Shown here: positions 3,971 to 56,263 of the stretch, one piece after another
Layout: the number at the start of each line of letters is the position of its first letter
Position numbering within the stretch: the stretch's first letter is position 1
Assembly: GCA_021741585.1 (NCBI GenBank)
Contig: JAIOXN010000001.1
Coordinates: forward strand, 496,001 to 560,000
DNA length: 64,000 bases
Direction of reading: 5' to 3'
DNA from: Aquiluna sp.
Lineage (GTDB): Bacteria > Actinomycetota > Actinomycetes > Actinomycetales > Microbacteriaceae
Notes under the pieces: generated by a model
Seen by the model: only the letters and a program-made list of their open reading frames with translations
What the model was told of the DNA's origin: nothing
The model's database searches: none
Program-made: the position numbers and the translations under genes

Positions 3971-5437
3971 GTGATCGAACGCCTCAGATTAGAGATTCGG
4001 CATCTGGTCGCATCCAAATACTTTGGCCCGTTTTCAACTATCGCAATCACTCTGCTGGGTGCAATTCTCAGATTTGGGAATTTGGCTAATCCGCACGTTT
4101 TAGTTTTTGACGAAACCTATTACGTCAAAGACGCATACACCCTTGGTCTGTTTGGTTTCGAACGCAATTGGCCGGATGATCCGAATCCTGATTTTGAGGC
4201 TGGCTCAACCGATGGTTACTTGGACACATCCGCCTACGTTGTGCACCCACCAATTGGCAAGTGGGTTATCTACCTTGGAATCCACCTCTTTGGCCCAGCA
4301 TCGAGTTTCGGTTGGCGCTTTTCGGTAGCCCTCTTGGGCACCTTGGCAATTCCACTTCTGATTGCAGTTGCCAGAAGACTCATTGGCTCAAAGGTTTTTG
4401 CAGCGCTTGCCGGGCTCTTTCTAGCCATTGAGGGCACTTCAATTGTCTTGGCAAGGACGGCGATTCTCGATGGCGTCTTGGCGTTTTTTGTATTGCTTGG
4501 TTTTTACTTCCTAGTTCGAGATCAACAAGCAGCTAGCCAAAGACTTGCAGGTAAATTTCTGATTGGTGCAAATGCCGGTATTAGCTTCCGACCCTGGCTG
4601 CTCCTAAGCGGAATAGCTTTGGGGCTTGCAACCGGGACCAAGTGGTCTGGCCTCTATTTTGTGGCTGCTTTCGGGCTCTACACACTGCTCAGTGATTACC
4701 TATCGCGCAAACGACTTGGCATTAGCCACAGCTCGCTGCTAGGCCAGGCTGCGCTGAATGCAATCACCTTAGTCCCTGTTTCGATTGCGGTTTATATCCT
4801 GGGCTGGCTCGGGTGGATCACGACATCCGGTGGTTGGGGCAGGGATGCAAAATCAACTTGGTGGGAATCACTTTTTGCATATCACGAGAATGCCCTCTCA
4901 TTCCATGTTGGATTGAGCACCCCGCACCCATATTCTTCTAATGCAATTGGATGGCTCCTGAACCTAAGGCCGACCGCCTTTTACTTCGAGAAGTTTGAGG
5001 ATGAAACCTGCGGGATCCTTAAAGACTGCGTGGTCGCGATTACCGCGCTTCCGCACCCTTTGATTTGGGCTGTCGGTGTCATTGCAATTCTTTGGATACT
5101 CAAGCGATTTTTTTTCACTGGCGAGCTTTCGGCTGGTCTTATTTCCGTTGGATTTTTGGCTGGCTGGGCTCCCTGGATGGTTTATTTCTCAAGGACCACT
5201 TTCTCGTTTTACTCGGTTGTGATTGCACCGTTTTTGATACTCGCTTTGGTTTATATGCTGCACCGGTATTGGCGTCGCGGATTCCTCTTTGGCAGACACT
5301 CTCAGCGCGAGCGAATCATCATATGGTTCGTGCTTCTGGCTATGCTTCTTCTTGGATATTTCCTGTCTCTATGGATGGGGTTGCCGGTGCCATACTGGGC
5401 CTGGCGAATCCAAATGTGGTTTCCATTCTGGATTTAA
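3971..5437 (+). CDS. pmt: Protein O-mannosyltransferase (PMT family)
   Basis: Polytopic membrane glycosyltransferase that, in mycobacteria and corynebacteria (Rv1002c type), transfers mannose from polyprenyl-phosphate-mannose to Ser/Thr of exported proteins. The 488-residue product has about ten hydrophobic segments. Family hallmarks are the acidic pair in VFDETYYVKDA (about residue 47) in the first extracytoplasmic loop, HPPIGKW shortly after, and ARTAILDGVL further on. The C-terminus ends in a tryptophan-rich segment (WMGLPVPYWAWRIQMWFPFW), as in the four-helix C-terminal PMT domain. It sits next to rsmI in the same divergent arrangement as in M. tuberculosis. The GTG start is chosen by its spacing to TAGCAT. 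Confidence 0.88.
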   Translation: MIERLRLEIRHLVASKYFGPFSTIAITLLGAILRFGNLANPHVLVFDETYYVKDAYTLGLFGFERNWPDDPNPDFEAGSTDGYLDTSAYVVHPPIGKWVIYLGIHLFGPASSFGWRFSVALLGTLAIPLLIAVARRLIGSKVFAALAGLFLAIEGTSIVLARTAILDGVLAFFVLLGFYFLVRDQQAASQRLAGKFLIGANAGISFRPWLLLSGIALGLATGTKWSGLYFVAAFGLYTLLSDYLSRKRLGISHSSLLGQAALNAITLVPVSIAVYILGWLGWITTSGGWGRDAKSTWWESLFAYHENALSFHVGLSTPHPYSSNAIGWLLNLRPTAFYFEKFEDETCGILKDCVVAITALPHPLIWAVGVIAILWILKRFFFTGELSAGLISVGFLAGWAPWMVYFSRTTFSFYSVVIAPFLILALVYMLHRYWRRGFLFGRHSQRERIIIWFVLLAMLLLGYFLSLWMGLPVPYWAWRIQMWFPFWI

Positions 5438-5446
5438 GGTGATTAG

Positions 5447-6613
5447 TTGTCCCTAGGTTTACGTGGGCTAAAAAATGCACCAGAGGCAATCAGCCTGCTG
5501 GTTAGTCAGCTATTTGCAAGATTCCCTTTTGGAATGCTCTCGCTTGCTTTTGTGATCCACATTCAGGCAATTACAGGGTCATATGCCGTTGCAGGAATTG
5601 CACTTGGCGCGGAGACAATTGGTGCCAGCGTCTCAGGCCCAATCATCTCTCGCATGATGGCAAAGTATGGAATACGCAGGGTTATTACTCTTGCGACAAT
5701 CGTTACAGTCTCTGCCCTTGCCGCCCTAGCAATTTCCCCACCCGAACCAGTCCTGCTGGTTGTGATTGCGTTGGTGGTGGGCTTGTCCTCTCCCCCGATT
5801 CAGCCGGCGGCCAGGACCATTTACCCACAGGTAACCCCAAAGAATTTGCTGAAGTCGTTGTATTCACTTGATGCAACAGCCCAGGAAATTATCTGGGTTT
5901 TAGGCCCATTGGTTGCAACATTGGTGGCTGCTCAATTTGGAAACATCCCGATGATTCTCACGGTGGCTGGGATTCAGATTCTTGGAACAACCTGGTTCTT
6001 GGCAAATAAGTCAGTAGGAAAAGCAAAGATTCCAAAAAGCGAGGCGGCAGTCGGAAGGGTTCTCAAGAACCCCCATGTCACAGCCGTCACATTTATTGGC
6101 CTTCTGCTTGTTGGTTCTTTTGCCGGCGTAGAAGTTGGATCGGTAGCGCTTTTTGACAAGGCAGTTGCCGGTCTCATGTTTGCGGTTTTCTCGCTTGGTT
6201 CAATCGTGGGAGGACTGGCACTTGGTCCAAGAATAAAATCCAAGTTCGCTCTGCCGATTTACCTTGCTGTAATGCTGCTTGGTTACGCACTAGTTTTGGT
6301 TGATGCCAGCAATCCATATTGGGTGGCCATGGCGTTGTTTATTGCAGGTTTGGGCGTAGCACCTTCCCTTGGCGCACTTTCTCTGTGGATTGCCACCAAT
6401 ACCTCTGGCAATGAAACCGCTGAAGCCTACGGCTGGACCACAACCGGTCAGCTGGTTGGCTTCTCGGCTGGTAGCGCTCTCGCAGGCATCGGTATCGATG
6501 CCGTTTCCGCACCTGCAGCTCTTCTGGTTTCTATCGTGTTTGGATTGGCAGCAGTCATCGCTGCAATCTACGCAGTGAGAAACTTAAATCCTGCGACTAA
6601 TTTGTCTTCTTAG
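5447..6613 (+). CDS. Major facilitator superfamily transporter, substrate unknown
   Basis: A 388-residue protein with about twelve hydrophobic segments in two halves, and the short basic cytoplasmic loop between helices 2 and 3 (MMAKYGIRRVITL) typical of MFS exporters. It resembles actinobacterial drug-efflux-like MFS proteins, but nothing specifies a substrate. The start is TTG at 5447. Two readings fit it: an AAGGTGA Shine-Dalgarno, or TAAGGT (built on the pmt stop TAA) exactly 6 nt upstream as a -10. The 3' end overlaps the convergent terC by 17 bp. Confidence 0.8.
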   Translation: MSLGLRGLKNAPEAISLLVSQLFARFPFGMLSLAFVIHIQAITGSYAVAGIALGAETIGASVSGPIISRMMAKYGIRRVITLATIVTVSALAALAISPPEPVLLVVIALVVGLSSPPIQPAARTIYPQVTPKNLLKSLYSLDATAQEIIWVLGPLVATLVAAQFGNIPMILTVAGIQILGTTWFLANKSVGKAKIPKSEAAVGRVLKNPHVTAVTFIGLLLVGSFAGVEVGSVALFDKAVAGLMFAVFSLGSIVGGLALGPRIKSKFALPIYLAVMLLGYALVLVDASNPYWVAMALFIAGLGVAPSLGALSLWIATNTSGNETAEAYGWTTTGQLVGFSAGSALAGIGIDAVSAPAALLVSIVFGLAAVIAAIYAVRNLNPATNLSS

Positions 6614-7574
6614 TTACAGCGAGCGACCAGATAGTTGTGATTATGAGGGTAATCACGATCACTCCCAACGACAATTCAGTTGAAATCTCCGGGATAAAGG
6701 TCACGTGTTCACCGCCGTTGATAAACGGCAATTCATTCTTGTGAAGCGCGTGAATAGTCAGCTTGAGGCCGATCCAACCAAGAATGATGCTCAGACCCAC
6801 GCCTAGGTACTTTAGGCGCTCCATGAGGCCACCAAGGAGGAAATAGAGCTGTCTGAGGCCTAGCAATGCAAATGCATTTGCCACAAAAACAATGTATGGC
6901 TCCTTGGTCAAACCATAAACCGCCGGAATGCTGTCTAGGGCAAACAACAAATCGGTGAAACCAATTGAAATCATCACCAGCATCAAAGGCGTGATGAAGC
7001 GTTTTCCCGAAAGCTTCACGGTCAACTTATTGCCGTGGTAGTCCTTTGTGGTTGGGAAGACCTTCGTAATCAGCTTGGTCAAACCGTTCGCATCGTTACT
7101 GTCCTCATCGCCTGGGTGGAGGGTTTCAATCACGAGCTTGATGGCCGTGTAGATCAAGAATGCACCGAAAATGTAGAACGCCCAGCTGAATGCCTCTATG
7201 AACGCAGCTCCGAGGATGATGAATATAAATCTGAGCACTAGAGCGATTGCGATGCCAATCAAGAGAGCTTGTGAGCGTAATTGTCGCGGCACCGCGAACT
7301 GCGTGAAAATAATCAAAAAGACGAAGATGTTGTCTACAGATAAAGAATATTCAGTCACCCAACCGGCTATATATTCCGCTGCATATTGGGTGCCCCAAAC
7401 TCCACCGATCACAAAGGTGAACAGAAGCGCCAAGGTGACGTATGCGGAAATCTGAATTGCAGATTCCTTCAAGGTAGGCTCGTGAGGATTCCTGGCTTGA
7501 ACAATAAAGTCAATCAGCAGGATGCCTGTGAGAACTGCGATAGTTACAACCCATACCCATAAATCGATCTGCAT
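6597..7574 (-). CDS. TerC-family integral membrane protein
   Basis: A 325-residue polytopic protein of the TerC/Alx family, which in other bacteria is linked to tellurite resistance and to manganese export across the membrane. Conserved intramembrane acidic residues are visible in TEYSLSVDNIFVFLIIF and in GFTDLLFALDSIPAVYGLT. The start at 7574 gives MQIDLWVW and follows AAAAGG with a 4-nt spacer; the longer frame upstream would extend into the divergent promoter region. The last 17 bases are antisense to the end of the MFS gene. Confidence 0.87.
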   Translation of the reverse strand: MQIDLWVWVVTIAVLTGILLIDFIVQARNPHEPTLKESAIQISAYVTLALLFTFVIGGVWGTQYAAEYIAGWVTEYSLSVDNIFVFLIIFTQFAVPRQLRSQALLIGIAIALVLRFIFIILGAAFIEAFSWAFYIFGAFLIYTAIKLVIETLHPGDEDSNDANGLTKLITKVFPTTKDYHGNKLTVKLSGKRFITPLMLVMISIGFTDLLFALDSIPAVYGLTKEPYIVFVANAFALLGLRQLYFLLGGLMERLKYLGVGLSIILGWIGLKLTIHALHKNELPFINGGEHVTFIPEISTELSLGVIVITLIITTIWSLAVTKKTN

Positions 7575-7650
7575 AGTGCCTTTTCTTGTTGTAAACGGAA
7601 TAATCGGAGTCACTCAATTGTATTTACTCTCTAACAACCGAAAGGCCGCA

Positions 7651-8535
7651 ATGAAAGTCCTAATCTCAGGAGCAGCCGGACTGGTTGGAACGGAACTTTC
7701 TAGACAGCTCAAAGAGCTTGGCCACAATCCAGTGCACCTGGTCCGCCGAGAGGCTAAAAATTCCTCCGAAATCTCCTGGGATCCGATGAACAATCAGATT
7801 CCAGCTGATGTTCTCGACGGCATCGATGCTGTAGTGAATCTGGCCGGCGCCACCACTGGCAAAATTCCATGGACTAAGAAATATAGGTTGGAACTAGTTT
7901 CCTCCAGACTCAACTCAACGCGACTTTTGGTGGAAGCAATAAACAAGGCGCCAAACCCACCAAGTGTTTTTGTCTCTGGTTCTGCTTCAGGTTTTTATGG
8001 TGAGGGGGGAGATCGTGAACTTTCCGAATCCGACCCCAAGGGCACGGGCTTTCTTTCTGATCTTGCCTTCGAATGGGAAGAAGAAGCTAAGAAAGCTCAC
8101 ACCCGGACAGTCTTGATCCGCACCACCATGGTCATGAGCAAGAAACTGGGTGCTCTAGGCAGGCTCCTGCCGTTAATCAAACTTGGAATTGGCGGGCCAC
8201 TTGGTTCGGGTAAACAATGGTGGGCATGGATCAGTCTCGAGGATGAGGCTAGGGCGATTATCCACCTGATCGAAAATGATTCAACATCGGGGGCCTACAA
8301 CCTAACCGCTCCTGAACCTGCCACCTGTGCTCAGCTGATTTCCGAACTAGGCAAGCAGTTAAAGCGCCCAACCATCTTCAAGGTCCCAGCATTTGCCCTA
8401 AGACTGCTTCTAGGCGAAGCTGCGCAGGAACTTTTGCTGTGCTCCCAGAAAATGAAATCCCACCGACTCCAGGAATCAGGGTTTGAATTCAAACACCCGA
8501 CCCTCAAAGAGTCAGTGGGATACGTTTTGAGCTAA
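7651..8535 (+). CDS. TIGR01777-type NAD(P)-dependent epimerase (YfcH-like)
   Basis: A 294-residue extended short-chain dehydrogenase with the N-terminal Rossmann motif ISGAAGLVGTEL, VVNLAGATTGKIPWTKKY and VFVSGSASGFYGEGGD (the YfcH form of the active-site region), plus a C-terminal DUF1731-like segment. The substrate of this family is not established. The ATG at 7651 follows AAAGG by 5 nt and starts right at the nucleotide-binding strand, so I discard the longer open frame upstream. The stop codon abuts the stop of the convergent H1-like gene with no base between. Confidence 0.85.
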   Translation: MKVLISGAAGLVGTELSRQLKELGHNPVHLVRREAKNSSEISWDPMNNQIPADVLDGIDAVVNLAGATTGKIPWTKKYRLELVSSRLNSTRLLVEAINKAPNPPSVFVSGSASGFYGEGGDRELSESDPKGTGFLSDLAFEWEEEAKKAHTRTVLIRTTMVMSKKLGALGRLLPLIKLGIGGPLGSGKQWWAWISLEDEARAIIHLIENDSTSGAYNLTAPEPATCAQLISELGKQLKRPTIFKVPAFALRLLLGEAAQELLLCSQKMKSHRLQESGFEFKHPTLKESVGYVLS

Positions 8536-9039: not shown

Positions 9040-9098
9040 TTTGTTTTGCTCCGTAAGTAATTGATTGAGGACAGGCTTGAATAGCCTATTGCGAAAAT

Positions 9099-9695: not shown

Positions 9696-9701
9696 AACTA
9701 A

Positions 9702-9707
9702 AAGATA
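9702..9707 (-). promoter_or_regulatory. Candidate -10 (TATCTT) of the GlpR-like gene, leaderless
   Basis: The hexamer occupies -12 to -7 relative to the ATG at 9695 on the minus strand. Confidence 0.5.
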
Positions 9708-9730
9708 TGGGTTAGAGGTTATAAACCGGC

Positions 9731-10318: not shown

Positions 10319-10325
10319 GATGGCA

Positions 10326-10331
10326 AGATTA
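10326..10331 (-). promoter_or_regulatory. Candidate -10 of rimJ (TAATCT), leaderless, overlapping the fthC promoter
   Basis: TAATCT is 7 nt before the rimJ GTG. On the other strand AAGATT at 10325-10330 is exactly 6 nt before the fthC GTG, so both genes seem to be served by one overlapping element in an 18-nt gap. Confidence 0.45.
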
Positions 10332-10336
10332 CCCCT

Positions 10337-18803: not shown

Positions 18804-19922
18804 ATGGCTGATATCAAAATTCCCGCAAACCTGCTCCCAAAAGACGGAAGATTTGGCTGCGGTCCATCTAGAACCAGACCCGAACAATTGGCCAACTTCC
18901 TCTCTGAGGGGGCAAGTCTGATTGGCACCAGCCATCGCCAAGCAGCCGTCAAGAATATGGTCGGCGATATTCGATCAGGTTTGCTGGAACTATTCCGTGC
19001 ACCTGAGGGTTACGAAGTAATCCTTGGCAATGGCGGTTCCACTGCATTTTGGGATGCTGCGGCATTCAGCTTGGTTGAGAACAAAGCACAGGCGCTAGTG
19101 CACGGTGAATTTGGATCCAAGTTTGCCAAAGCTCTAAAGACCCCCTGGCTTGAGGCTCCAACCATCCGTTCGAGCGAACCAGGAACCCTCAATCATTTGG
19201 TTCCAGAGGCGGGGGTTGATGCATATGTTTACCCACAGAACGAGACCTCGACCGGTGTGATTGCGCCAGTTCAGAGAGTTGAAGGCGTTGATGAGGGTGC
19301 GCTGTTTATGACAGATGCCACCTCGGCAGCTGGCGGCGTTGACTTTGACCTATCTCAAACCGATGTTTACTACTTTGCACCGCAGAAGAACTTTGCATCC
19401 GATGGTGGGCTGTGGGTTGCCGTTGTCTCCCCTGCCGCCATTGAGCGCATCGAAAGGATATCTTCCTCGGGAAGATACATCCCTGAGTTCTTGAGCCTGA
19501 AGGTAGCTCTAGATAACTCCAGGTTGAACCAAACTCTAAACACTCCTGCAATTGCCACTTTGTTTATGCTTTTGGATCAAATTCGCTGGATCAATAAATC
19601 CGGAGGACTGTCTTGGGCAGATGCTAGAACCAAGGAAAGTTCCAAGCTGCTCTACGACTGGGCTCACCACTCCAAGATTGCTTTCCCATTTGTGGAGAAT
19701 CGCGATCACCAGTCCCAGGTTGTCGTGACGATTGATTTCGAAGACTCAATGGATGCGACCTTGATCACCAAAGCGCTTCGAGCAAATGGCATTTTGGATG
19801 TTGAGCCATATCGCAAGCTGGGTAAGAACCAGATTCGAGTGGCAACTTTCGTTGCTACGGATCCGAGTGAGGTTAGCGCGCTAATTACCTGCTTGGACTA
19901 TGTAATCGATGCTTTGTCATAG
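18804..19922 (+). CDS. serC: Phosphoserine aminotransferase
   Basis: PLP enzyme of serine synthesis (3-phosphohydroxypyruvate plus glutamate to phosphoserine). The 372-residue product begins with KIPANLLPKDGRFGCGPSRTR, as in the actinobacterial SerC group, and the PLP-lysine region FAPQKNFASDGGLWVA is clear, as are ILGNGGSTAFWDAAAF and DATSAAGGVDFDL. As in mycobacteria it sits beside DUF2530 and DUF3027 genes. Its mRNA appears leaderless from TAAACT. Confidence 0.93.
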   Translation: MADIKIPANLLPKDGRFGCGPSRTRPEQLANFLSEGASLIGTSHRQAAVKNMVGDIRSGLLELFRAPEGYEVILGNGGSTAFWDAAAFSLVENKAQALVHGEFGSKFAKALKTPWLEAPTIRSSEPGTLNHLVPEAGVDAYVYPQNETSTGVIAPVQRVEGVDEGALFMTDATSAAGGVDFDLSQTDVYYFAPQKNFASDGGLWVAVVSPAAIERIERISSSGRYIPEFLSLKVALDNSRLNQTLNTPAIATLFMLLDQIRWINKSGGLSWADARTKESSKLLYDWAHHSKIAFPFVENRDHQSQVVVTIDFEDSMDATLITKALRANGILDVEPYRKLGKNQIRVATFVATDPSEVSALITCLDYVIDALS

Positions 19923-19925
19923 AGT
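19920..19925 (+). promoter_or_regulatory. Candidate -10 (TAGAGT) of the DUF2530 gene, built on the serC stop codon
   Basis: The serC stop TAG forms the first three bases of TAGAGT, which stands exactly 6 nt before the next ATG. No Shine-Dalgarno is present in the 9-nt gap. Confidence 0.5.
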
Positions 19926-21179: not shown

Positions 21180-22799
21180 TTGTCTGATCTTTTGGATCTA
21201 GCTGGAGCCCTCAAGTCCAAATCTGAAGAGGATCTAGCGAGTCTCCTTACAGCGATCGCCGGCGAGGGCCAAGCTCTTTCAGATCTCTTTGACCTCTCTC
21301 GAGTGCTGCTCACCAGAAGAGAGCTAGAGCGCAGAATTCGGGAATTAGATCGAGCATCTCTCGAAGAGCTGAAAGCCGGTAATCACACAACTCTGTTGCA
21401 AGAAAGGATGCTTGCAGGAGCCGCAAACACCTTCGAAGCTGCCACTGAGCTGGCCAAAACACTCGATCCGGTTCCACTAAAAGCCAATAAGCATGTCCAA
21501 GCCGGTTCTCCTCACAGCGCCTACGAGACGCTTATGGCGATCACGGAGTTGCTTTTTGCGTGCGAGCGAAATTGGCTCTCGGTGATTCGTTCAGGCCTCA
21601 GAGCCCAGGACGCCAAAGAACTTGCTGAGGTCTTGAAATTACCAACGTCGGAAATCCAACTCAGATTTGCCCTGGCTCAAGAAACCGGTTTGATAATCGC
21701 GTTTGAGGATCGTTTTGTGGCGACCGATTTGGGGCTTTCTTGGCTGGAAGAATCCAACGCCAAACGCTGGGAGATAATCGCAGAACGGGTTTTTGATTTG
21801 CCAGAAATCAAACTTCGCGATCTGCCTGTTTTGGATCTTGTCAGCGAAGAATATCCACTCAAAAACCCAAACGAGTTGAAATTCTTTAGCTATGGTCCAG
21901 CCCTTGGATTGCTCGATCACGGTCTTGCAACCAAAGCTCTCGAGCTATCAATTTCAAATAACCTAGAGGCAGCAGCTACCTATTTGGCTAATGAACTTCC
22001 GACCCCGGTTGAAAAGCTAATTATTCAAGCAGATTTGAGCATTACCTCGCCGGGTCCGATTACCCCAGCACTTCACAAAAGCCTTGATGTTTTTGCACAG
22101 TCTGAGGATCTGGGGCTTGCCTGCAGATTCCGGTTGAGTCTTATGAGCATCACCCATGGCCTTGAGACTGGACTAAGCATTCAAGACATCGAATCCACAC
22201 TCAGAAATCTAAGTCAGCACGACTTGCCACAACCTGTTGTTTATCTCTTGGCCGAGGCAACTAAAAGATTCGGGGAGCTTACTGTTGAAGGGTCTCTCCT
22301 TGGCACGATCGTTCGTTGCAGCGACAAGATATTGCTTGCTCAAATTCAAAACGAAACTGGCTTGAACGCCCTGATGTTACGGCCCGGTGCGGATGGCGAA
22401 CTGGTCTCAAGGCTTGCCAGCGCACTGATCTATTTCAACCTTCGTCAGGCCGGTTACCCAGCTGTGATGATTGACGAGACCGGCTCGATTATTTCTCCAA
22501 GGCTCCGGATTCAAACTCCGGATGTGCCACTAAGCCAATTGGCGCTCAACAAGGCAAAGCAACTTCTTAGCGAAGAATCAAAAGAACCCGCCCAAGATGA
22601 CATGCTCCGCCAATTGCAGTTTGCCCTCAAAAACAAGCTTCGCGTAACACTCAAGCTTCAGCGCCCTGAAGGTCACGAGGTTGAATACAACATCGAACCG
22701 CTTGGTATAGCCGGCGGACGAATCCGAGGTCGCGACCTAGACAAAGAGGCTGAACTTACCCTTCCCCTAGCGAGAGTGACGAGCGTCTGGCTCAGTTAG
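21180..22799 (+). CDS. XPB-helicase-associated protein (Rv0862c-like)
   Basis: 539 residues, mostly alpha-helical, corresponding in position to Rv0862c, which lies upstream of the XPB helicase in mycobacteria and carries a helicase-associated C-terminal module. The C-terminal part has a WYL-like look (ALKNKLRVTLKLQRPEGHEVEYNIEPLGI). No ATPase motifs are seen. The TTG start abuts the previous stop. I infer a partner role for the adjacent helicase from conserved linkage only. Confidence 0.65.
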   Translation: MSDLLDLAGALKSKSEEDLASLLTAIAGEGQALSDLFDLSRVLLTRRELERRIRELDRASLEELKAGNHTTLLQERMLAGAANTFEAATELAKTLDPVPLKANKHVQAGSPHSAYETLMAITELLFACERNWLSVIRSGLRAQDAKELAEVLKLPTSEIQLRFALAQETGLIIAFEDRFVATDLGLSWLEESNAKRWEIIAERVFDLPEIKLRDLPVLDLVSEEYPLKNPNELKFFSYGPALGLLDHGLATKALELSISNNLEAAATYLANELPTPVEKLIIQADLSITSPGPITPALHKSLDVFAQSEDLGLACRFRLSLMSITHGLETGLSIQDIESTLRNLSQHDLPQPVVYLLAEATKRFGELTVEGSLLGTIVRCSDKILLAQIQNETGLNALMLRPGADGELVSRLASALIYFNLRQAGYPAVMIDETGSIISPRLRIQTPDVPLSQLALNKAKQLLSEESKEPAQDDMLRQLQFALKNKLRVTLKLQRPEGHEVEYNIEPLGIAGGRIRGRDLDKEAELTLPLARVTSVWLS

Positions 22800-22802
22800 G
22801 CT
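22797..22802 (+). promoter_or_regulatory. Candidate -10 (TAGGCT) of the XPB gene, built on the upstream stop codon
   Basis: The TAG stop of the preceding gene plus GCT gives TAGGCT, exactly 6 nt before the ATG at 22809. Confidence 0.5.
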
Positions 22803-22808
22803 AGAGGG

Positions 22809-24440
22809 ATGTCTTTGGGGCCCTTGATTGTTCAGTCGGACCGCACCGTTCTGCTTGAAACCGATCATGCCGATGCCACAACCGCAAGGCATGAGCTGGC
22901 AATTTTCGCGGAATTGGAAAGAGCCCCTGAACACATCCACACCTACCGAATTACAAAACTAGGTCTTTGGAATGCTCGGGCGGCAGGGCACGATGCCACA
23001 TTCATTCTCGACTCGCTGAACCGTTGGTCAAAGTATCCGGTTCCTCCCGGAGTGGAAAAAGAAATCAGCGAAACCATCGCCCGCTTCGGGCGCCTGGTTA
23101 TTGCAAGAAACGAGCAGGGTCTGACCCTAACCTCTCAAGACTTAGCCGTGATCACGGAGGTTTCCAGCAATCGCAAGGTTTCTGAGCTTTTAGGCGAGCG
23201 AATCGAATTCGGATTCCAGGTGAAGGATTGGGCCCGAGGCCAACTCAAGCAAGAACTTCTCAAGCTCGGCTGGCCAGCAGAAGATAATGCCGGCTTCACT
23301 CCTGGAACACCGCACCCGATCGAGCTCAACACCGATGGCTGGACCCTGCGCGAATACCAAAAAGAGGCTGTCGAAAAGTTTGAGGCTGGTGGATCTGGCG
23401 TAGTGGTACTTCCATGTGGTGCCGGCAAGACTTTGGTCGGCGCCGCAACCATGGCAAAGATCAAAACCAACACTTTGATTTTGGTTACCAATACAGTTTC
23501 GGCAAGACAATGGCGCGCAGAGCTATTGGCAAGAACTTCGCTAACCGAAGACGAGATTGCGGAGTACTCCGGTTCCTCTAAGAACATCGCTCCTGTGACA
23601 ATCGCGACCTACCAAATTCTCACCACCAAGCGAAAAGGCGAATTCGCCCACCTGGAGCTTCTCAACGCGAGAGACTGGGGCTTGGTTGTTTACGACGAGG
23701 TCCACCTGCTACCTGCGCCCATCTTCAAGATGACCGCCGATTTGCAGGCAAGGCGCCGGCTTGGCCTCACCGCGACCTTGGTTCGCGAAGATGGGCGTGA
23801 GTCTGATGTCTTTTCACTGATCGGGCCAAAGCGCTTCGATGCTCCTTGGAAAGACATCGAAGCCCAGGGATACATCGCTCCGGCAAACTGCTTCGAAGTT
23901 AGGGTTTCGCTCCCTGATGAAGACCGCATGGCGTACGCAATTGGCGATCAAGATGCTCGTTTTAGAACCGCAGCCACGGCCAAAGCCAAGATTCCAATCA
24001 TGCAAAAGCTCATCAAAAAGCATGCCGGGGAGCCAACTTTGATCATTGGGCAATACCTGGATCAAATCGAGGAAGTATCCTCGACGCTCGGGATTCCAAA
24101 GCTCACCGGAGAGACTCCAATTGAAGAACGAGAGCGCCTATTTGCTGCATTTAGATCAGGAGAACTTAGCGCCTTGGTGGTTTCCAAGGTCGCAAACTTC
24201 TCGGTGGATTTGCCTGAGGCATCGGTGGCAATTCAGATCTCTGGAGCCTTTGGCTCCAGACAAGAAGAGGCTCAGCGCCTAGGCAGATTGCTCAGGCCAA
24301 AGGCCGATGGCAGATCTGCGGTTTTCTACACCCTGGTTGCTCGAGACACCGTTGAGCAAGACTTTGCGCAGAACCGTCAGCGCTTTTTGGCAGAGCAGGG
24401 ATATTCCTACGAGATTATGGATTCGGAAGAAATCTTCTAG
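22809..24440 (+). CDS. XPB/Rad25-type DNA repair helicase
   Basis: 543-residue superfamily-2 DNA helicase, 3'-5' by family. Walker A is VLPCGAGKTLVGAA (about residue 199-212), motif II is the XPB-type DEVH in LVVYDEVHLLPAP, motif III is GLTATLVREDGRE, and motif VI is EEAQRLGRLLRP. The N-terminal damage-recognition-like domain typical of XPB precedes them. In actinobacteria this protein accompanies the Rv0862c-like gene. It is likely involved in nucleotide excision repair or transcription-coupled events, a role not settled in bacteria. Confidence 0.92.
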   Translation: MSLGPLIVQSDRTVLLETDHADATTARHELAIFAELERAPEHIHTYRITKLGLWNARAAGHDATFILDSLNRWSKYPVPPGVEKEISETIARFGRLVIARNEQGLTLTSQDLAVITEVSSNRKVSELLGERIEFGFQVKDWARGQLKQELLKLGWPAEDNAGFTPGTPHPIELNTDGWTLREYQKEAVEKFEAGGSGVVVLPCGAGKTLVGAATMAKIKTNTLILVTNTVSARQWRAELLARTSLTEDEIAEYSGSSKNIAPVTIATYQILTTKRKGEFAHLELLNARDWGLVVYDEVHLLPAPIFKMTADLQARRRLGLTATLVREDGRESDVFSLIGPKRFDAPWKDIEAQGYIAPANCFEVRVSLPDEDRMAYAIGDQDARFRTAATAKAKIPIMQKLIKKHAGEPTLIIGQYLDQIEEVSSTLGIPKLTGETPIEERERLFAAFRSGELSALVVSKVANFSVDLPEASVAIQISGAFGSRQEEAQRLGRLLRPKADGRSAVFYTLVARDTVEQDFAQNRQRFLAEQGYSYEIMDSEEIF

Positions 24441-32571: not shown

Positions 32572-33645
32572 ATGGCATCAGTATCATTCCGCGACGCAAC
32601 CCGACTATATCCAGGCGGCACCAAGCCTGCAGTCGACAAGCTAAACCTAGAAGTCAAGGATGGCGAGTTCTTGGTTTTGGTTGGCCCTTCCGGTTGCGGT
32701 AAATCAACTTCCCTCCGCATGCTTGCTGGCCTAGAAGAGGTCAACGAGGGTGGCATCTACATTGGAGACCGCGACGTCACCGATGTTCCACCAAAGGACC
32801 GCGACATTGCGATGGTTTTCCAGAACTACGCCCTTTACCCACACATGACTGTGGCTGAGAACATGGGATTCGCCCTAAAGATTGCAGGAATCAACAAGGA
32901 AGAGCGCGCAGAGCGCGTTTTGGAAGCTGCAAAGCTATTGGACCTTGAGCCATACCTAAACCGCAAGCCAAAGGCACTTTCCGGTGGTCAGCGTCAGCGT
33001 GTTGCCATGGGTCGTGCGATTGTTCGTAAGCCTCAGGTATTCCTTATGGACGAGCCACTATCAAACTTGGATGCAAAGCTTCGTGTGCAGACTCGCACCC
33101 AGATTGCATCTCTACAGCGCCGCCTGGGTGTAACCACTGTTTACGTGACTCACGACCAGGTCGAGGCTATGACCATGGGTGACCGCGTTGCAGTTTTGAA
33201 GGACGGCCTACTTCAGCAGGTTGACACCCCAAGAAACCTTTACGACCGCCCAGCAAACGTCTTCGTTGCAGGCTTCATCGGCTCCCCTGCCATGAACCTA
33301 GTTCAGCTTCCAATCATTGAAGGTGGCGTGCAGTTTGGTGACTCTGTTCTCAAGATTTCCCAGGACATCTTGGGCAAGGCAACCGGTGGTCGCGTAACCG
33401 TCGGCATCCGCCCAGAGAAGCTATCCGTTGCAGAGCACGGCCTTGAGGTTGAGGTTGATGTTGTTGAGGAACTTGGTTCAGATGGCTACCTATACGGCCG
33501 CGCAAAGCTAGACGGCGCTGAGACCAACGTGGTTGTTCGCGTTGACCCAATCGACCACCCACGCGCTGGCGACAAGATCCACCTAAGCGCTGACGAGACT
33601 GCAGTTCACGTCTTTGACGCAGAGAGTGGCTTGCGCCTCAACTAG
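32572..33645 (+). CDS. MsiK/UgpC-type sugar ABC transporter ATPase
   Basis: 357 residues: an ABC domain with Walker [11 protein letters not shown]-loop MVFQNYALYPHMTV, signature LSGGQRQRVAMGRA, Walker B VFLMDEPLSNLDA and H-loop THDQ, then the C-terminal MalK-type OB-fold regulatory domain. No permease or binding protein is adjacent, as for the shared actinobacterial ATPase MsiK that energises several sugar transporters. AAGGAG lies 6 nt before the ATG. Leucine is mostly CTA or CTT, suggesting high expression. Confidence 0.93.
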   Translation: MASVSFRDATRLYPGGTKPAVDKLNLEVKDGEFLVLVGPSGCGKSTSLRMLAGLEEVNEGGIYIGDRDVTDVPPKDRDIAMVFQNYALYPHMTVAENMGFALKIAGINKEERAERVLEAAKLLDLEPYLNRKPKALSGGQRQRVAMGRAIVRKPQVFLMDEPLSNLDAKLRVQTRTQIASLQRRLGVTTVYVTHDQVEAMTMGDRVAVLKDGLLQQVDTPRNLYDRPANVFVAGFIGSPAMNLVQLPIIEGGVQFGDSVLKISQDILGKATGGRVTVGIRPEKLSVAEHGLEVEVDVVEELGSDGYLYGRAKLDGAETNVVVRVDPIDHPRAGDKIHLSADETAVHVFDAESGLRLN

Positions 33646-42123: not shown

Positions 42124-42870
42124 TTACTTTTTACCCTGATTCGCAACCGCGGCTGCTCCAGCCGCTGCAGCCTCTGGGTCTAGGTATTCTCCGCCTGCAA
42201 CCAATGGCTTGAAGTTCTCATCAAGCTTGTAGTGCAGTGGGATTCCAGTAGGAATATTTAGTTCTGCAATGTCCTCATCTGACACCCCATCAAGCTTTTT
42301 AACCAAAGCTCGTAGAGAGTTTCCGTGGGCGGTGACCAAAACTGTCTTGCCGGAAACTAAAGACTTGGAAATATCTGACTCCCAATAAGGAATCATGCGA
42401 ACCAATACGTCTTTGAGGCACTCCGTCTTTGGAAGATCGCTCCCGAGTCCGGCATACCTTTCATCGTGCGCCTGTGAGAACTCATTGTTGTCATCAATCG
42501 GTGGTGGTGGGACATCAAAGCTGCGGCGCCAGGTCTGGAATTTCTCAGGGCCGTATTTCTCCAAAGTTTCTGCTTTATCAAGACCCTGAAGCGAGCCGTA
42601 GTGGCGCTCGTTCAATCTCCAGGAACGCAAGGTTGGGATCCAGTTCCGGTCAATCTGGTCAAGCGCGATGTGAGCGGTGTTGATTGCGCGCTTCAGGACA
42701 GATGTATAAAGCACATCTGGCAATAGACCCGACTCCCCAAGCAGCTCGCCGGCACGCTTTGCCTCTGCACGACCCTGGTCGCTGAGGTCTACATCCACCC
42801 ATCCGGTGAAGAGGTTCTTTTGGTTCCACACGCTATTGCCGTGGCGAAGGAGAATTAGGTTATAAGTCAT
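42124..42870 (-). CDS. gpmA: 2,3-bisphosphoglycerate-dependent phosphoglycerate mutase
   Basis: 248 residues. [20 protein letters not shown] is the phospho-histidine motif and [13 protein letters not shown] the second active-site motif; GpmA length is normal. The C-terminus ends in an Ala-rich tail. ATG at 42870 is chosen because it gives the family start and TAAACT is 7 nt upstream; that hexamer begins with the stop codon TAA of the upstream FUSC gene. Confidence 0.95.
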
Positions 42871-42877: not shown

Positions 42878-42883
42878 AGTTTA
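42878..42883 (-). promoter_or_regulatory. Candidate -10 (TAAACT) of gpmA, built on the FUSC-gene stop codon
   Basis: TAA of the upstream stop plus ACT gives TAAACT, 7 nt before the gpmA ATG. No ribosome site is visible. Confidence 0.55.
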
Positions 42884-45523: not shown

Positions 45524-45634
45524 TTACCGCTGCCCCTTGAATAACTTGAAAAGCACGAGCGCAGAAATGCCGGCAATCGCGATTGATGCAAGCACCAACA
45601 AGCCGGTAAAGAAGATTTCTAGAGCCAAAAGCAT
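45524..45634 (-). CDS. 36-residue small membrane protein upstream of nitrobindin
   Basis: Reads MLLALEIFFTGLLVLASIAI then AGISALVLFKLFKGQR and stop: one long hydrophobic helix with a basic C-terminal end. TAGAGT is exactly 6 nt before its ATG and begins with the TAG stop of the upstream gene. One base separates its stop from the nitrobindin TTG. No family is recognised. Confidence 0.62.
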   Translation of the reverse strand: MLLALEIFFTGLLVLASIAIAGISALVLFKLFKGQR

Positions 45635-45640: not shown

Positions 45641-45646
45641 ACTCTA
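45641..45646 (-). promoter_or_regulatory. Candidate -10 (TAGAGT) of the 36-residue gene, built on the upstream stop codon
   Basis: The stop TAG of the 84-residue gene (45644-45646) plus AGT gives TAGAGT at -12 to -7 from the ATG. Confidence 0.5.
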
Positions 45647-49701: not shown

Positions 49702-49716
49702 GTAAATTGAATATTT

Positions 49717-49746: not shown

Positions 49747-49813
49747 CAAGTTACTGAGGGATTCCTAGTGTTTGTTTCGCGTGAGCACAAACAGACAGAT
49801 AAGGGAATAACCC

Positions 49814-50938: not shown

Positions 50939-50957
50939 ACAACTGGCAAAATAATCG

Positions 50958-50995
50958 GATTAGCCCGGGCTCGGTCACCCGAGCTCGGGCTAATC
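50958..50995 (+). terminator. pstS-pstC intercistronic hairpin
   Basis: A 17-bp stem with one wobble pair and a TCAC loop, followed only by TATTTAC. It lacks a good T-run, so it more likely limits read-through or protects the 3' end of pstS mRNA, giving excess binding protein over permease. Confidence 0.65.
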
Positions 50996-51027
50996 TATTT
51001 ACAGCACACAACAAATTGGGAGTCGAA

Positions 51028-51963
51028 GTGACAACGCTGGGTGGGCAAGTAAAACCAAAGGTACGCCTAGGCGACCTAGTGTTCTCGAGGGCAGCTTCAG
51101 TTGCAGGAATCGGGATTCTTATAACCCTGGCTGCAGTGGCAGTCTTTCTCTTCATACAGGCACTTCCAGCCCTGAACCCAGAAGCTGACTTCTCTGGCAA
51201 GGCCGAGAATCCAATCAGCTATGTAACTCCATATGTTTTCGGAACCCTGTATGGGTCCATCATCGCTCTAGCCATTGCAACGCCGCTGGCTATCGGTATC
51301 GCGCTCTACATCTCCCACTATGCAAACAGGAGATTCTCACAGATTCTCGGCTACATCATGGACCTTTTGGCCGCCATCCCATCGGTGGTCTATGGCCTTT
51401 GGGGCATCATGGTGTTGGCGCCGTTCTTGAACCCGACCTACCTTTGGCTCAACGAGAATTTGGGTTGGATTCCACTGTTCGCAGGTCAGGTATCTGCAAC
51501 TGGAAGAACCATGCTGACCGTGGGCATTGTGCTTGCGATTATGGTGCTGCCGATCATGGCAGCTCTCATCCGCGAAGTCTTTCTTCAGACTCCTCGTCTT
51601 CACGAGGAAGCTGCTCTAGCACTTGGGGCAACCCGTTGGGAAATGATCAAGATGGCAGTGTTGCCATTCGGTCGCCCCGGAATCATCTCTTCGATGATGC
51701 TCGGACTTGGAAGAGCATTGGGTGAAACCATGGCGGTTGCATTGGTCCTCTCCCCTGCTTCGATAATCAACTTCGCACTTCTTACCTCGCAGAACTCAAA
51801 CACCATCGCTGCGAATATCGCTCTTCACTTCCCAGAGTCCGGTGGGGACTATCGATCCCTCTTGATTGCATCAGGTTTGATGCTCTTCCTAATCACGATG
51901 CTCATAAACATGCTTGCTCGCTACATCATTAGCCGCAGAGCCGAATTCTCAGGAGCAAACTAA
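51028..51963 (+). CDS. pstC: Phosphate ABC transporter permease PstC
   Basis: 311 residues, six membrane helices with the EAA loop EEAALALGATRWEMIKMAVLPFGRPGI. GTG at 51028 is chosen because GGGAG lies 5 nt before it; the track begins at an earlier TTG with no ribosome site. Its stop overlaps the pstA ATG. Confidence 0.95.
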   Translation: MTTLGGQVKPKVRLGDLVFSRAASVAGIGILITLAAVAVFLFIQALPALNPEADFSGKAENPISYVTPYVFGTLYGSIIALAIATPLAIGIALYISHYANRRFSQILGYIMDLLAAIPSVVYGLWGIMVLAPFLNPTYLWLNENLGWIPLFAGQVSATGRTMLTVGIVLAIMVLPIMAALIREVFLQTPRLHEEAALALGATRWEMIKMAVLPFGRPGIISSMMLGLGRALGETMAVALVLSPASIINFALLTSQNSNTIAANIALHFPESGGDYRSLLIASGLMLFLITMLINMLARYIISRRAEFSGAN

Positions 51964-53027
51964 TGGCTACAACTTTCTATGGAATTCAAGCAACCGCCAC
52001 TTTGCCAAGGTGGTTCTCCCCACTGGCTCTAATTGGTTCTCTTGCTCTTACCACTGCAATGTTCGTTGTTTCCGGATTCACTGATGAAAGTGGAAACCTA
52101 AACCTGCTGGCCATTGCCGTATTGGGTTTTGCCCTTTACATGATCATGACCTATTTGATCTCTCGCGGTGTTGAAGGTCGACGCAAAGCCACCGACCGAA
52201 TGGTCACCGGCTGGGTTTCTGCGGCATTTGCTCTAGCCGTTGTCCCGCTAGTTTCGCTAGCTTGGACAGTATTTGAAAAGGGAATCAACCGCCTCGATGC
52301 CGAGTTCTTCACTTCTTCAATGCGAAACGTTGTGGGAGAGGGCGGCGGAGCACTCCACGCCATCATTGGAACGGTCGAACTCACAACCATTGCGACTCTA
52401 ATTTCCGTTCCACTGGGAATCATGACGGCCATCTACTTAGTTGAGTATGGCCGCGGACGTCTTGCCAAGGCAGTGACATTTTTCGTGGATGTGATGACTG
52501 GTATCCCATCGATCGTGGCCGGTCTGTTTGCCTTCTCGCTGTTTTTGATTTTGCTAGGTCCTGCCAGCGCCATCAATGGAATGGCCGGTGCAGTTTCTCT
52601 AGCGGTGCTGATGACACCAGTAGTCGTTCGGTCTGCAGAAGAGATGCTAAAGATCGTTCCAAACGAACTTCGTGAAGCCTCATATGCCCTGGGTGTTCCA
52701 AAGTGGCTCACAGTTGTAAAGGTTGTTTTGCCAACCGCGCTGGCGGGAATCGCAACCGGTGTAATCATCGCTATTGCCCGAGTGATTGGCGAGACCGCGC
52801 CTCTTCTTCTTGCAGCCGGATTTACGACCTCGATGAACTACAACCCGCTCTCCGAGAAGATGATGACTCTTCCGGTTTTCGTTTACACCTCATACGCCAT
52901 CCAAGGAACTGACGCCGCCTCATACGTGGACCGAGCTTGGGCTGGTGCACTAACTCTTATGCTCATCGTGATGTTGCTAAACCTTGGCGCCCGAATTATT
53001 TCCAAACTGTTCTCACCGAAGGGATAA
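51963..53027 (+). CDS. pstA: Phosphate ABC transporter permease PstA
   Basis: 354 residues; the N-terminal third has extra helices before the permease core, whose EAA loop reads LREASYALGVPKWLTVVKVVLPTALAGI. Forms the channel with PstC. Start within the pstC stop (TAATG). Confidence 0.95.
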   Translation: MATTFYGIQATATLPRWFSPLALIGSLALTTAMFVVSGFTDESGNLNLLAIAVLGFALYMIMTYLISRGVEGRRKATDRMVTGWVSAAFALAVVPLVSLAWTVFEKGINRLDAEFFTSSMRNVVGEGGGALHAIIGTVELTTIATLISVPLGIMTAIYLVEYGRGRLAKAVTFFVDVMTGIPSIVAGLFAFSLFLILLGPASAINGMAGAVSLAVLMTPVVVRSAEEMLKIVPNELREASYALGVPKWLTVVKVVLPTALAGIATGVIIAIARVIGETAPLLLAAGFTTSMNYNPLSEKMMTLPVFVYTSYAIQGTDAASYVDRAWAGALTLMLIVMLLNLGARIISKLFSPKG

Positions 53028-53030
53028 CCA

Positions 53031-53810
53031 ATGTCAAAGCGCATTGAACTGAAATCACTGAATGTCTACTACAGCAAGTTCTTGGCTGTAGAAGATGTAA
53101 ACATGGTGATCGAACCAAAGGCAATCACCGCATTCATTGGTCCATCCGGTTGCGGCAAGTCCACTTTGATTAGAACCCTGAACAGGATGCACGAGGTTAT
53201 CCCTGGCGCATACGTAGAGGGCTCTTTGACCATGGACGGCGAGGACATATACGCTGCCGAGGTTGACCCAGTAAAGGTCAGGCGCCAGGTCGGAATGGTA
53301 TTCCAGCGCCCCAACCCATTCCCAACCATGAGCATCAAAGAGAACGTGCTCTCTGGTTACAAGCTAAACAACAACCGCATGTCAAAGAGTGACGCTGATG
53401 AACTCACAGAGAAGGCCCTAGTTGGAGCAAACCTCTGGAATGAAGTTAAGGACCGTCTTGACCGTCCAGGCTCTTCACTCTCTGGTGGTCAACAGCAAAG
53501 GCTATGTATTGCCCGCGCAATTGCAGTCGAGCCAGACGTGATTCTGATGGATGAGCCGACAAGCGCCCTTGATCCGATTTCCACAGCAGCCATCGAGGAC
53601 CTGGCAGTTGAGCTAAAAGAGAAGTTCACCGTTGTCATCGTTACCCACAACATGCAACAGGCTTCTCGCATTTCGGACATGACCGCATTCTTCAACATCG
53701 CCGGCACTGGAATGCCAGGAAAGCTAATCGAATACGACCGCACCGAGAAGATCTTCTCCAACCCAACTCAGAAACAAACTGAGGATTATGTTTCTGGTCG
53801 CTTTGGCTAG
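53031..53810 (+). CDS. pstB: Phosphate ABC transporter ATPase PstB
   Basis: 259 residues: Walker [16 protein letters not shown], PstB-specific Q-loop [14 protein letters not shown], signature [14 protein letters not shown], Walker [14 protein letters not shown] and THNMQQA. Powers phosphate import; ends the pst operon. Confidence 0.97.
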
Positions 53811-53834
53811 AAACAAAACCAAGGACTTCGTGGT

Positions 53835-53840
53835 TAGGGT
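53835..53840 (+). promoter_or_regulatory. Candidate -10 (TAGGGT) of the SDR-DUF2867 gene
   Basis: Five nt before the ATG at 53846, no ribosome site visible. Confidence 0.4.
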
Positions 53841-53845
53841 CTGTC

Positions 53846-55369
53846 ATGATTGAAAATGTCACGGCAGACCTTTCACCTTTAATGGTTGATGGCAAGCCGG
53901 CAACTGTTTTGGTGACTGGAGCAACTGGTTACATTGGTGGCCGGCTAATCCGTGAGCTACTCTCCCACGATTACAAAGTGCGAGTCCTGGTCAGAGACCC
54001 AGAGAAACTTCGTGATTATCCATGGGTAGACCAGGTGGAGATAATCAAAGGCGATGCCTTTGATGCTGAATCTGTTTCAAGTGCCCTAGAGGGTGTTCAC
54101 CTCGCTTATTACCTACTCCATGCGCTCATGGCGGTTGAAAACTTCGAAGAAAAAGAACGGGACCTTGCTCGGATCTTTGCCAAGGCCGCCACAGACAACA
54201 AGCTAAAACGAATTGTCTACCTTGGAGGAATGAGCTCTGGGGGCGAGAAGCTCTCAGCGCACATGTCGGCCAGAACCCAAACCGGTGAGATTCTGCGCGA
54301 TTCAGGAGTGCCAACCATTGAGCTTCGAGCCGGGGTTGTGATTGGCTCGGGGTCGGCATCCTTTGAGATGCTGCGTCACCTGACCGAGCGCCTGCCTTTC
54401 ATGGTGACACCCAAATGGCTCCTGAACCGCATTCAGCCGATTGCAATCAGGGATGTTTTGAGATACCTCGTCGGCTCAGCGACCATCGATCCTAAAATTA
54501 GCGGCGACTACGACATCGGTGGCCCAGATGTCTTCACTTATCTGGAAATGATGCAGCAATACGCATTGGCTGCGGGCCTTCGCAGGAGAGTCATCATCCC
54601 GCTGCCGGTTCTGACCCCAAAGTTAGCTTCGGGTTGGATCGGGCTTGTCACGCCGGTGCCGGTAACCCTTGCCAGAAGGCTGGTGGAGTCGCTAAAGCAC
54701 GAGGTCGTAGCAAGAGATGACTCAATTAGACAACTGGTTCCGGATGCCCCAGGAGGGCTCACCAGCTTCCAGGATGCGGTCAAGTTTGCTCTTACTCGAG
54801 TCAAAGATTTCGAAGTTGAAACTCGCTGGTCAAATGCAAGAACCGAAGGAACCCACTCCGAGCCTCTACCTACAGATCCGGATTGGGCAGGTGGTTCTCT
54901 CTATGTTGATCATCGCGAGTACCTGAGCGATGAAAGCATCGCCGAAGTATGGGCAAGGGTGGAAGCCATCGGGGGCCAGAACGGCTACTCCACCGGCACC
55001 TGGCTCTGGGAGCTTCGCGGCATCATGGATCGCATGATTGGCGGGGTGGGACTGCGCAGAGGAAGACGCGATCCAAACCACCTCATGGAAGGTGAAGCAC
55101 TTGATTTTTGGCGAGTGGAAAAGATAGATCGTCCACATCTTTTGCGCCTACGTGCAGAGATGAAACTCCCCGGTTTGGCATGGCTGGAATTCCAACTCTC
55201 CACAACCGATAGCGGCAAAACCCTTTTGTCTCAAAAGGCATATTTCCACCCCAGAGGCCTTTTTGGACATACCTACTGGTGGATGGTTGCCCCTATGCAC
55301 ACGATCGTTTTCCCCTCTATGGCAAGAACTTTGGCGGGGAAGAATTCTAGGAAGTCTCAAAATCGCTAG
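53846..55369 (+). CDS. NAD(P)-binding SDR with C-terminal DUF2867
   Basis: 507 residues: an atypical short-chain dehydrogenase half (VLVTGATGYIGGRLIRELLS, VRVLVRDPEKL, GVHLAYYLLHAL) and a DUF2867 half of about 160 residues (LWELRGIMDRMIGGVGLRRG...). Such fusions are widespread; their substrate is unknown, with a link to polyketide or quinone chemistry only suggested. It lies after pstB but probably has its own promoter. Confidence 0.85.
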   Translation: MIENVTADLSPLMVDGKPATVLVTGATGYIGGRLIRELLSHDYKVRVLVRDPEKLRDYPWVDQVEIIKGDAFDAESVSSALEGVHLAYYLLHALMAVENFEEKERDLARIFAKAATDNKLKRIVYLGGMSSGGEKLSAHMSARTQTGEILRDSGVPTIELRAGVVIGSGSASFEMLRHLTERLPFMVTPKWLLNRIQPIAIRDVLRYLVGSATIDPKISGDYDIGGPDVFTYLEMMQQYALAAGLRRRVIIPLPVLTPKLASGWIGLVTPVPVTLARRLVESLKHEVVARDDSIRQLVPDAPGGLTSFQDAVKFALTRVKDFEVETRWSNARTEGTHSEPLPTDPDWAGGSLYVDHREYLSDESIAEVWARVEAIGGQNGYSTGTWLWELRGIMDRMIGGVGLRRGRRDPNHLMEGEALDFWRVEKIDRPHLLRLRAEMKLPGLAWLEFQLSTTDSGKTLLSQKAYFHPRGLFGHTYWWMVAPMHTIVFPSMARTLAGKNSRKSQNR

Positions 55370-55372
55370 AGT
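55367..55372 (+). promoter_or_regulatory. Candidate -10 (TAGAGT) of the DMT exporter gene, built on the upstream stop codon
   Basis: The TAG stop of the SDR gene plus AGT gives TAGAGT exactly 6 nt before the GTG at 55379. Confidence 0.5.
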
Positions 55373-55378
55373 TCTTCG

Positions 55379-56263
55379 GTGAGTAAAACTCGACTGGCCG
55401 CACTAGCTCTTTTGGGCGTTGGCTTCACCTGGGGCGCGGCATTCGTCTTGATGAAAGACGCCATCGAGCAGCAGCCATATATGGACTTTCTTGCCACTAG
55501 ATTCACACTGGCTGCCATTGCAATGGCAGTGCTTCGGCCCAAAGTTGCAACCAAGTTTGCCAAGGGTGATTTGTCTTGGGGGCTATTGCTAGGGCTTGTG
55601 CTGAGCCTTGGCTACATCACTCAAACAATCGGTCTCGAGCTCACAACTGCCGCAACCTCTGGTTTTCTAACCGGTCTCTATGTCGTGATGACGCCGCTAT
55701 TGGCATGGATCTTCATGAGAAAGTCGATTGGCTGGCGAATCGGGGTTGGGGCGCTGGTTTCAGTTGCAGGTTTAGCTATTTTCTCGGGTGCTGCTGAGAG
55801 CACCGATTTCCAAACCGGCCAAATTTGGCTTGTAGTTTGTGCACTTCTATATGCGCTTCACATTCTCTTGTTGGGCAAATTTGGCCGCGGCCGCAACACA
55901 TATCGCTTTGCGATGATTCAAATTGCCGGTGTTGCTGTGGTTTGCTGGGCCTTTGCACTTGTCGATGGCTATCAGGCACCGGATAGCTTCCAGGTTTGGT
56001 TCGCGATCATTTTCACCGCGGTTGCATCAACCGCGCTTGCCTTCTGGGTACAGACCTGGGCGCAAACAATTTTGGATTCATCAAGAGCGGCGCTTTTGAT
56101 GACCAGTGAGGTTATTTTCACAGCCTTCATCGCCATTGGCCTTGGCCAGGAAGATCTGACCCTTGCGATTGGAATAGGTGGAACCCTGATGTTGGCCGCG
56201 ATGTTAATCGTTGAGTGGCCGAGCAAAAAGCATCCGGTGGAGCTAGAGCCCCACGTCTTCTAG
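55379..56263 (+). CDS. EamA/DMT-superfamily transporter
   Basis: 294 residues, ten hydrophobic helices in two EamA repeats (GVGFTWGAAFVLMKDAIEQQ in the first; TSEVIFTAFIAIGLGQEDL in the second). Probably exports a metabolite; the substrate is not predictable. GTG start fixed by the 9-nt gap. The last 21 bases are antisense to the end of glpD. Confidence 0.87.
   Translation: MSKTRLAALALLGVGFTWGAAFVLMKDAIEQQPYMDFLATRFTLAAIAMAVLRPKVATKFAKGDLSWGLLLGLVLSLGYITQTIGLELTTAATSGFLTGLYVVMTPLLAWIFMRKSIGWRIGVGALVSVAGLAIFSGAAESTDFQTGQIWLVVCALLYALHILLLGKFGRGRNTYRFAMIQIAGVAVVCWAFALVDGYQAPDSFQVWFAIIFTAVASTALAFWVQTWAQTILDSSRAALLMTSEVIFTAFIAIGLGQEDLTLAIGIGGTLMLAAMLIVEWPSKKHPVELEPHVF

Follow-up and report, generated by a model that had tools for sequence, protein, structure and literature searches.

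In a 64,000-nucleotide stretch of the genome of Aquiluna sp. (assembly GCA_021741585.1, contig JAIOXN010000001.1, positions 496,001 to 560,000; hereafter the window), the TAA or TAG stop codon of one gene repeatedly forms the first half of a TANNNT hexamer that lies 6 or 7 nt before the start codon of the next gene on the same strand. This coupling of stop codon and hexamer is real and exceeds chance. We consider it highly probable that the hexamer, TAR-N-N-T with the upstream stop as its TAR, serves the downstream gene as the -10 box of a leaderless promoter; transcription would then begin at the start codon itself. The source organism is a small Luna-type aquatic actinobacterium ("Luna" is the term of the sequence-only reading of the window that drew attention to the pattern; one listed paper treats the Luna-1 subcluster together with Rhodoluna and Aquiluna), whose genome comprises 1,386,222 bases in 3 contigs (1.39 Mb). 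The closest named relatives of its XPB-like protein are found in a Microbacteriaceae metagenome-assembled genome (84%) and in Aquiluna isolates (80–81%).

Gene junctions were counted in the window together with 20 further 20-kb stretches of the same genome (464 kb; 461 genes, 331 co-directional pairs) and, for the genus, in this sample pooled with those of three congeners (G001, G006 and G010), which together hold 1124 co-directional pairs; control samples were 200–400 kb each. Since a motif-based gene caller would have been circular, genes were called with a dicodon model of our own that lacks start motifs. As this caller missed three window cases, setting the start of an EamA-type transporter later and leaving a DUF2530 gene and a 36-amino-acid (aa) open reading frame (ORF) uncalled, the sample counts are likely to be low.

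In the own-genome sample, the histogram of gaps between co-directional genes shows a local spike at 9 nt (13 pairs; 5 TAA, 8 TAG and no TGA stops), with 7 pairs at gap 10 and 1–5 at each of gaps 5–8 and 11–14. Beyond the window, nine is not the most frequent positive gap, as had been claimed: gap 2 is ahead (24 versus 13 pairs in the own sample, 62 versus 32 pooled), and in the own sample gap 0 (14 pairs) is also commoner. What sets the spike apart is the sixth base of the hexamer. After TAA and TAG stops, this base is T in 17 of 20 own-sample pairs at gap 9 or 10, compared with 27 of 134 at gaps of at least 11 (p = 2.4e-8). The corresponding counts at gap 9 or 10 in the three congeners are 7/10, 7/10 and 12/17 (p = 0.001, 0.001 and 5e-5), giving pooled values of 43/57 versus 95/489 (p = 3e-17). 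Among the pooled gap-9 pairs, T follows at position 6 in 28 of 32, more mildly at position 7 (15/32) and elsewhere in 3–11 of 32.

The complete box is present in 43 of the 58 pooled pairs at gap 9 or 10 (the fused pairs), compared with 11 of 492 pairs having any other gap of 12 nt or less and 63 of 574 at gaps of 13 nt or more. It also precedes divergent genes, which have no co-directional upstream stop: of 402 such genes, 56 have TANNNT at -12 and 32 have it at -13, whereas about 6 per register are expected by chance, and 75 of these 88 boxes have A or G as their third base. In both settings (43/58 and 88/402), the hexamer begins about 12 nt before the start codon, as in TA-led genes. Because the same box occurs before divergent genes, the best reading is a -10 box belonging to leaderless genes.

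Two further features are consistent with this assignment. A Shine-Dalgarno (SD)-like motif accompanies 10 of the 43 fused pairs versus 13 of the 15 gap-9/10 pairs without a box, and 4 of 88 divergent genes with a box versus 117 of 314 without one. Most fused genes, though not all, thus lack an SD, and seven fused boxes read TAGGAT, which itself contains AGGA. TTG starts are found in 118 of 825 genes without a box but in only 1 of 194 with one (a case rejected below); box-bearing genes otherwise start with ATG or GTG. The scarcity of SD motifs, the near absence of TTG and the retention of the box where it is not fused (see below) support the view that it is the -10 box of a leaderless promoter private to the downstream gene. 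According to the relevant passages of two papers, this signature is the known one of leaderless genes in Actinobacteria (PMC3160421; PMC3890552).

All seven TAR-NNT hexamers that the sequence-only reading had listed in the window are present, with the spacing it gave; five of them hold up as examples and two do not. The junctions and genes concerned are as follows (rsmI, serC, pmt and SDR, all upstream genes, are labels of that reading).

3126..3131, minus strand: TAAGAT; the rsmI stop TAA (3129–3131) forms the first half of the putative -10 box, 7 nt before the metG GTG.
1547..3118, minus strand: metG (methionyl-tRNA synthetase), predicted leaderless; PF09334, 4e-97.
22797..22802, plus strand: TAGGCT; stop of the gene at 21180–22799 fused to the putative -10 box, 6 nt before the ATG of an XPB-like helicase.
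22809..24440, plus strand: XPB/ERCC3-like helicase, predicted leaderless; PF16203, 4e-40.
42878..42883, minus strand: TAAACT; stop TAA (42881–42883) of a FUSC-like gene fused to the putative -10 box, 7 nt before the gpmA ATG.
42124..42870, minus strand: gpmA-like histidine phosphatase, predicted leaderless; PF00300, 1e-32.
45641..45646, minus strand: TAGAGT; stop of a small gene fused to the putative -10 box, 6 nt before the ATG of the 36-aa gene.
45524..45634, minus strand: conserved hydrophobic small protein of 36 aa; intact ORF in relatives, no Pfam match.
55367..55372, plus strand: TAGAGT; stop of the gene at 53846–55369 (SDR) fused to the putative -10 box, 6 nt before the GTG of an EamA/DMT transporter.
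55379..56263, plus strand: EamA-type transporter, predicted leaderless; PF00892, 4.8e-31.
19920..19925, plus strand: TAGAGT at the junction of serC and a 75-aa gene (DUF2530); uncertain, box in this genome alone.
5435..5440, plus strand: TAAGGT at the pmt/MFS junction; rejected, part of the SD-like AAGGTGAT.

A further junction, malK-DUF4032, has TAGGCA at 33643 with a gap of 9, as had been noted; it lacks the final T. The FUSC-like gene matches PF13515 with 25.5 bits, slightly below the cut-off of 25.6. The small gene before the 36-aa gene had been given 84 aa; its longest ORF has 98.

Across the genus, the box is kept at five of the seven window junctions, those of metG, XPB, gpmA, the EamA transporter and the 36-aa protein (counts of loci include our own; weak or partial matches were omitted before counting, namely L257–L259 for MFS, L279–L283 for gpmA and L304–L307 for metG and, for XPB, those of G013 and G019, with G003, G029 and G038 yielding no locus). 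At metG, all 20 loci have the box, all are fused and all start with GTG. At XPB, 18 of 19 loci have it, all 18 fused, and the remaining one (L036) has neither box nor gap 9. The EamA junction has the box in 17 of 17 loci (13 at -12, 4 at -14), 11 of them fused and 6 not. At gpmA, it is present in 19 of 19 (17 at -12 or -13, 2 at -14), fused in 14 at -12 or -13 and in one (L261) at -14, and present but unfused in L262, L268, L269 and L278. In the 10 unfused loci that keep the box (6 EamA, 4 gpmA), the upstream stop lies 14–23 nt before the start and is TGA in three; one of these, EamA locus L238, has the box TATTCT, which contains no stop codon, and TGA as the upstream stop. In all 17 relatives fetched, the 36 codons of the 36-aa gene are uninterrupted and the stop of the preceding small gene is part of a fused TAGNNT; that small gene is itself found in 18 of 21 genomes searched, our own included. 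An SD-type gap-9 junction intended as a control, at the minus-strand gene L010:10620-11645, which we take to be cydB-like, was unusable because the gene is present in our own genome alone (a match in 1 of 21 genomes, none in the 20 congeners).

Two observations stand beside these junctions. At rsmI-metG, all 20 genus loci share nine bases on the minus strand (window 3123–3131), TAAGATATC (in two of them TAGGATATC); such conservation exceeds what a -10 box needs and perhaps marks a regulator site. The 36-aa gene is adjoined by the small gene and by a gene for a THAP4-like heme-binding domain protein (PF08768).

The two examples that failed did so differently. The pmt-MFS junction is of the SD type: in addition to its SD-like motif, it has the box in only 1 of 8 genus loci, the other seven showing AGGTG (five) or GAGGG/AGGGG (two) in its place at gaps of 6–8, and its TTG start is the sole one among the 194 box-bearing genes. 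At serC-DUF2530, the box occurs in 1 of 19 loci, our own; in the other 18, the genes overlap or abut (16), are 4 nt apart (one) or align only from residue 18 (L326).

In the family, the box is more widespread than the fusion. Among 80 named Microbacteriaceae XPB loci, 73 have the box; the upstream stop is fused to it in 11 of these, the upstream homologue ends elsewhere in 60 (with TGA in 40 of the 60) and none was found in 2. Seven of the 80 are Aquiluna-type (L112–L118) and at least partly come from the same genomes as the genus set; without them, the box is present in 67 of 73 loci and fused in five: L119, L127 (Rhodoluna), L129, and L178 and L182 (both Microbacterium, with the box at -14). 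For metG and gpmA, we used short stretches from 20 family genomes each, scoring any in-frame start near the aligned N terminus with a box at one of three registers. The box was found in 18 of 20 metG loci (3 fused by ORF scoring, which is the sole basis for L329; upstream end not assigned in 7 box loci) and in 19 of 20 gpmA loci (none scored fused; upstream end not assigned in 15 box loci). These 37 of 40 compare with a chance estimate of 5–9% per locus, from a background of 1.5% per register. Another allowed overlap is seen in two family metG loci (L337 and L340), where the upstream stop begins with the final T of the box (offset -5). Since the box is mostly unfused in the family, it is probably older than the fusion, which would be derived and would have arisen in more than one lineage.

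If the box is a promoter, how would it work, and how did it come to hold a stop codon? RNA polymerase carrying the housekeeping sigma factor would open the DNA at the box and begin transcription on the ATG or GTG 6–8 nt farther on, or a base or two from it, and ribosomes would start on the 5′ end of the message without an SD. The box would predate the fusion, since most boxes in the family are unfused and the upstream stop has another position. Intergenic shortening in the small genomes of the genus may have allowed the frames of upstream genes to extend as far as the box, and a frame arriving in phase would end there because the box usually reads TAA or TAG. Once fused, the stop would be under two constraints: TAA and TAG could swap freely, TGA would be excluded and the T at position 6 would be retained. 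Apparently, the fusion arose when gaps shrank and gene ends came to lie on promoters that were already there.

Stop codon usage runs in the direction that the sequence-only reading had predicted, with TGA at 1 of 58 junctions at gap 9 or 10 versus 21 of 212 at gaps 3–8 and 11–30 (p = 0.055) and 83 of 445 at gaps above 30 (p = 3e-4). Support for avoidance specific to this gap is weak, since few genes end in TGA at most of the short positive gaps. TAG, usually the rarest of the three stop codons in bacteria, is common in the genus samples (our own, G001, G006 and G010), also away from fusions (116 of 331 own pairs; 192 of 445 at gaps above 30).

The sequence-only reading had proposed that each downstream gene gains a private leaderless promoter at no cost in length. 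The -10 box part of this proposal is supported; length saving is not needed as its cause. An economy of this kind, in which the fusion itself was favored because it spares DNA in a streamlined genome, is possible but doubtful. In its favor, the four small genus genomes have many fusions (43 in 1124 co-directional pairs), and 452 pairs of three larger high-GC genomes have none. Moreover, upstream stops at offset 0 number 43 (control registers give about 2 by chance), compared with 0.9 per offset at offsets 3–22, a 48-fold spike. But a frame that enters a TAR box in phase stops with probability 1, against 3/64 for a random codon, so that a spike of 64/3, or 21-fold, is expected without selection; measured against offsets 3–8 (2.2 stops per offset), the observed spike is 20-fold. 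Because the observed 20- to 48-fold spike compares with 21-fold expected, selection for length is not needed. The third base of the fused stop follows that of the box (A:G is 16:27 in fused and 24:51 in divergent boxes). Two additional findings argue against economy: fusion also occurs in the two Microbacterium loci, and no fused box has the extended -10 motif TGN (0 of 43 versus 15 of 88 divergent boxes, p = 0.002), since TGN would there have to be the last sense codon (Cys or Trp) or a stop. Fusion may therefore cost something. A depletion of genes reading through the box was first suspected; it was unclear against the per-offset density and is not claimed.

The promoter reading also has to be weighed against two explanations that rest on translation. 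We regard it as extremely unlikely that the 9–10-nt gap reflects the spacing of an SD that overlaps or follows the stop, as in other prokaryotes. Spacers of 9–15 nt are over-represented in prokaryotes generally, according to the relevant part of one study (PMC2784483), and an SD core that lies in the spacer or overlaps the stop is indeed found in 13 of the 15 gap-9/10 pairs without a box and at pmt-MFS, which is one such case. Yet the box is present in 43 of the 58 pairs and its final T is no part of an SD. The fused class is defined not by an SD core but by this T, whose conservation at metG, XPB, gpmA, the EamA gene and the 36-aa gene contradicts an SD explanation there. That ribosomes terminate and restart 9 nt after the stop, with the hexamer as a translational signal, is very unlikely as well. 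The distance would allow it, and both processes could occur on read-through messages, but divergent genes have the same box, and so do genes whose upstream stop is 14–23 nt away.

Several points count against reading the hexamer as a -10 box, or against the weight of our numbers. Two of the seven window examples failed. None of the 43 fused pairs has a -35-like TTGN[CA] (TTGNCA-like at 16–19 nt was sought), so a sigma-70-type promoter with a -35 element at this distance was not found; such motifs are also scarce before divergent genes with (4/88) and without (18/314) a box. At gap 10, T at position 6 is less frequent (15/25) than at gap 9. Of the 30 XPB loci in our first set, 19 were counted with the genus; in the 11 more distant ones, our script found the box in one (L048) and misplaced the start in three. 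Two loci of the same family whose starts were misplaced, L040 and L041, show by eye TAGGGT and TAGGCT 8 nt before an ATG. Our caller also misplaced some starts, and the congeners share ancestry, so that the pooled p-values overstate independence. Finally, in the three high-GC relatives none of 35 box-bearing co-directional genes is fused, even though 7 have a stop within 30 nt upstream. Capture of gene ends by the box is therefore insufficient alone or does not act everywhere; the second ingredient is likely to be spacer compaction.

If the hexamer is a -10 box, several consequences follow. Sequence alone would mark genes within apparent operons that probably have their own promoter, pairs that operon callers joining genes a few tens of bases apart would merge into one unit. 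A fused box would help to place start codons and small genes, such as that of the 36-aa protein. It would also show a transcription signal setting stop-codon choice and spacing and would qualify the view that leaderless genes can only be first in a transcript. On a broader proposal we are evenly divided: that the fused stop/-10 is a standing architecture of compact, leaderless-rich Actinobacteria, in which the promoter rather than translation sets stop and gap at about 4% of co-directional junctions (43/1124), apparent operons are split without this being noticed, and the element, once formed, is under two constraints and acts as a ratchet.

Among the matches listed in our literature search, mostly titles, none described a stop codon as part of a -10 box. 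In the passages concerned, leaderless (TA-led) genes are described as having TANNNT about 12 bp before the start, and Actinobacteria average 19.2% leaderless genes (PMC3160421); box, register and lack of an SD are the same here, except that the box sits in the short gap between two co-directional genes and includes the stop codon of the first. The corresponding passages on M. tuberculosis and C. glutamicum report leaderless transcripts, sub-operon starts and a TANNNT -10 with a weak or no -35 (PMC3898074; PMC3890552) and, for C. glutamicum, leaderless starts at AUG or GUG only and internal starts that divide operons (PMC3890552). The -10, the weak or missing -35 and the restriction to AUG or GUG are shared with our genes, for which internal starts are predicted as well; a stop codon within the box does not appear in those passages. 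A parallel in form is the stop codon that may overlap the SD of the next gene in prokaryotes, as described in part of another study (PMC2784483). There, too, a stop that also belongs to a signal of the following gene influences gene spacing and the choice of stop. Here the shared signal would be a transcription box, which those passages do not mention and which excludes TGA and sets a gap of 9–10 (rarely 11) nt.

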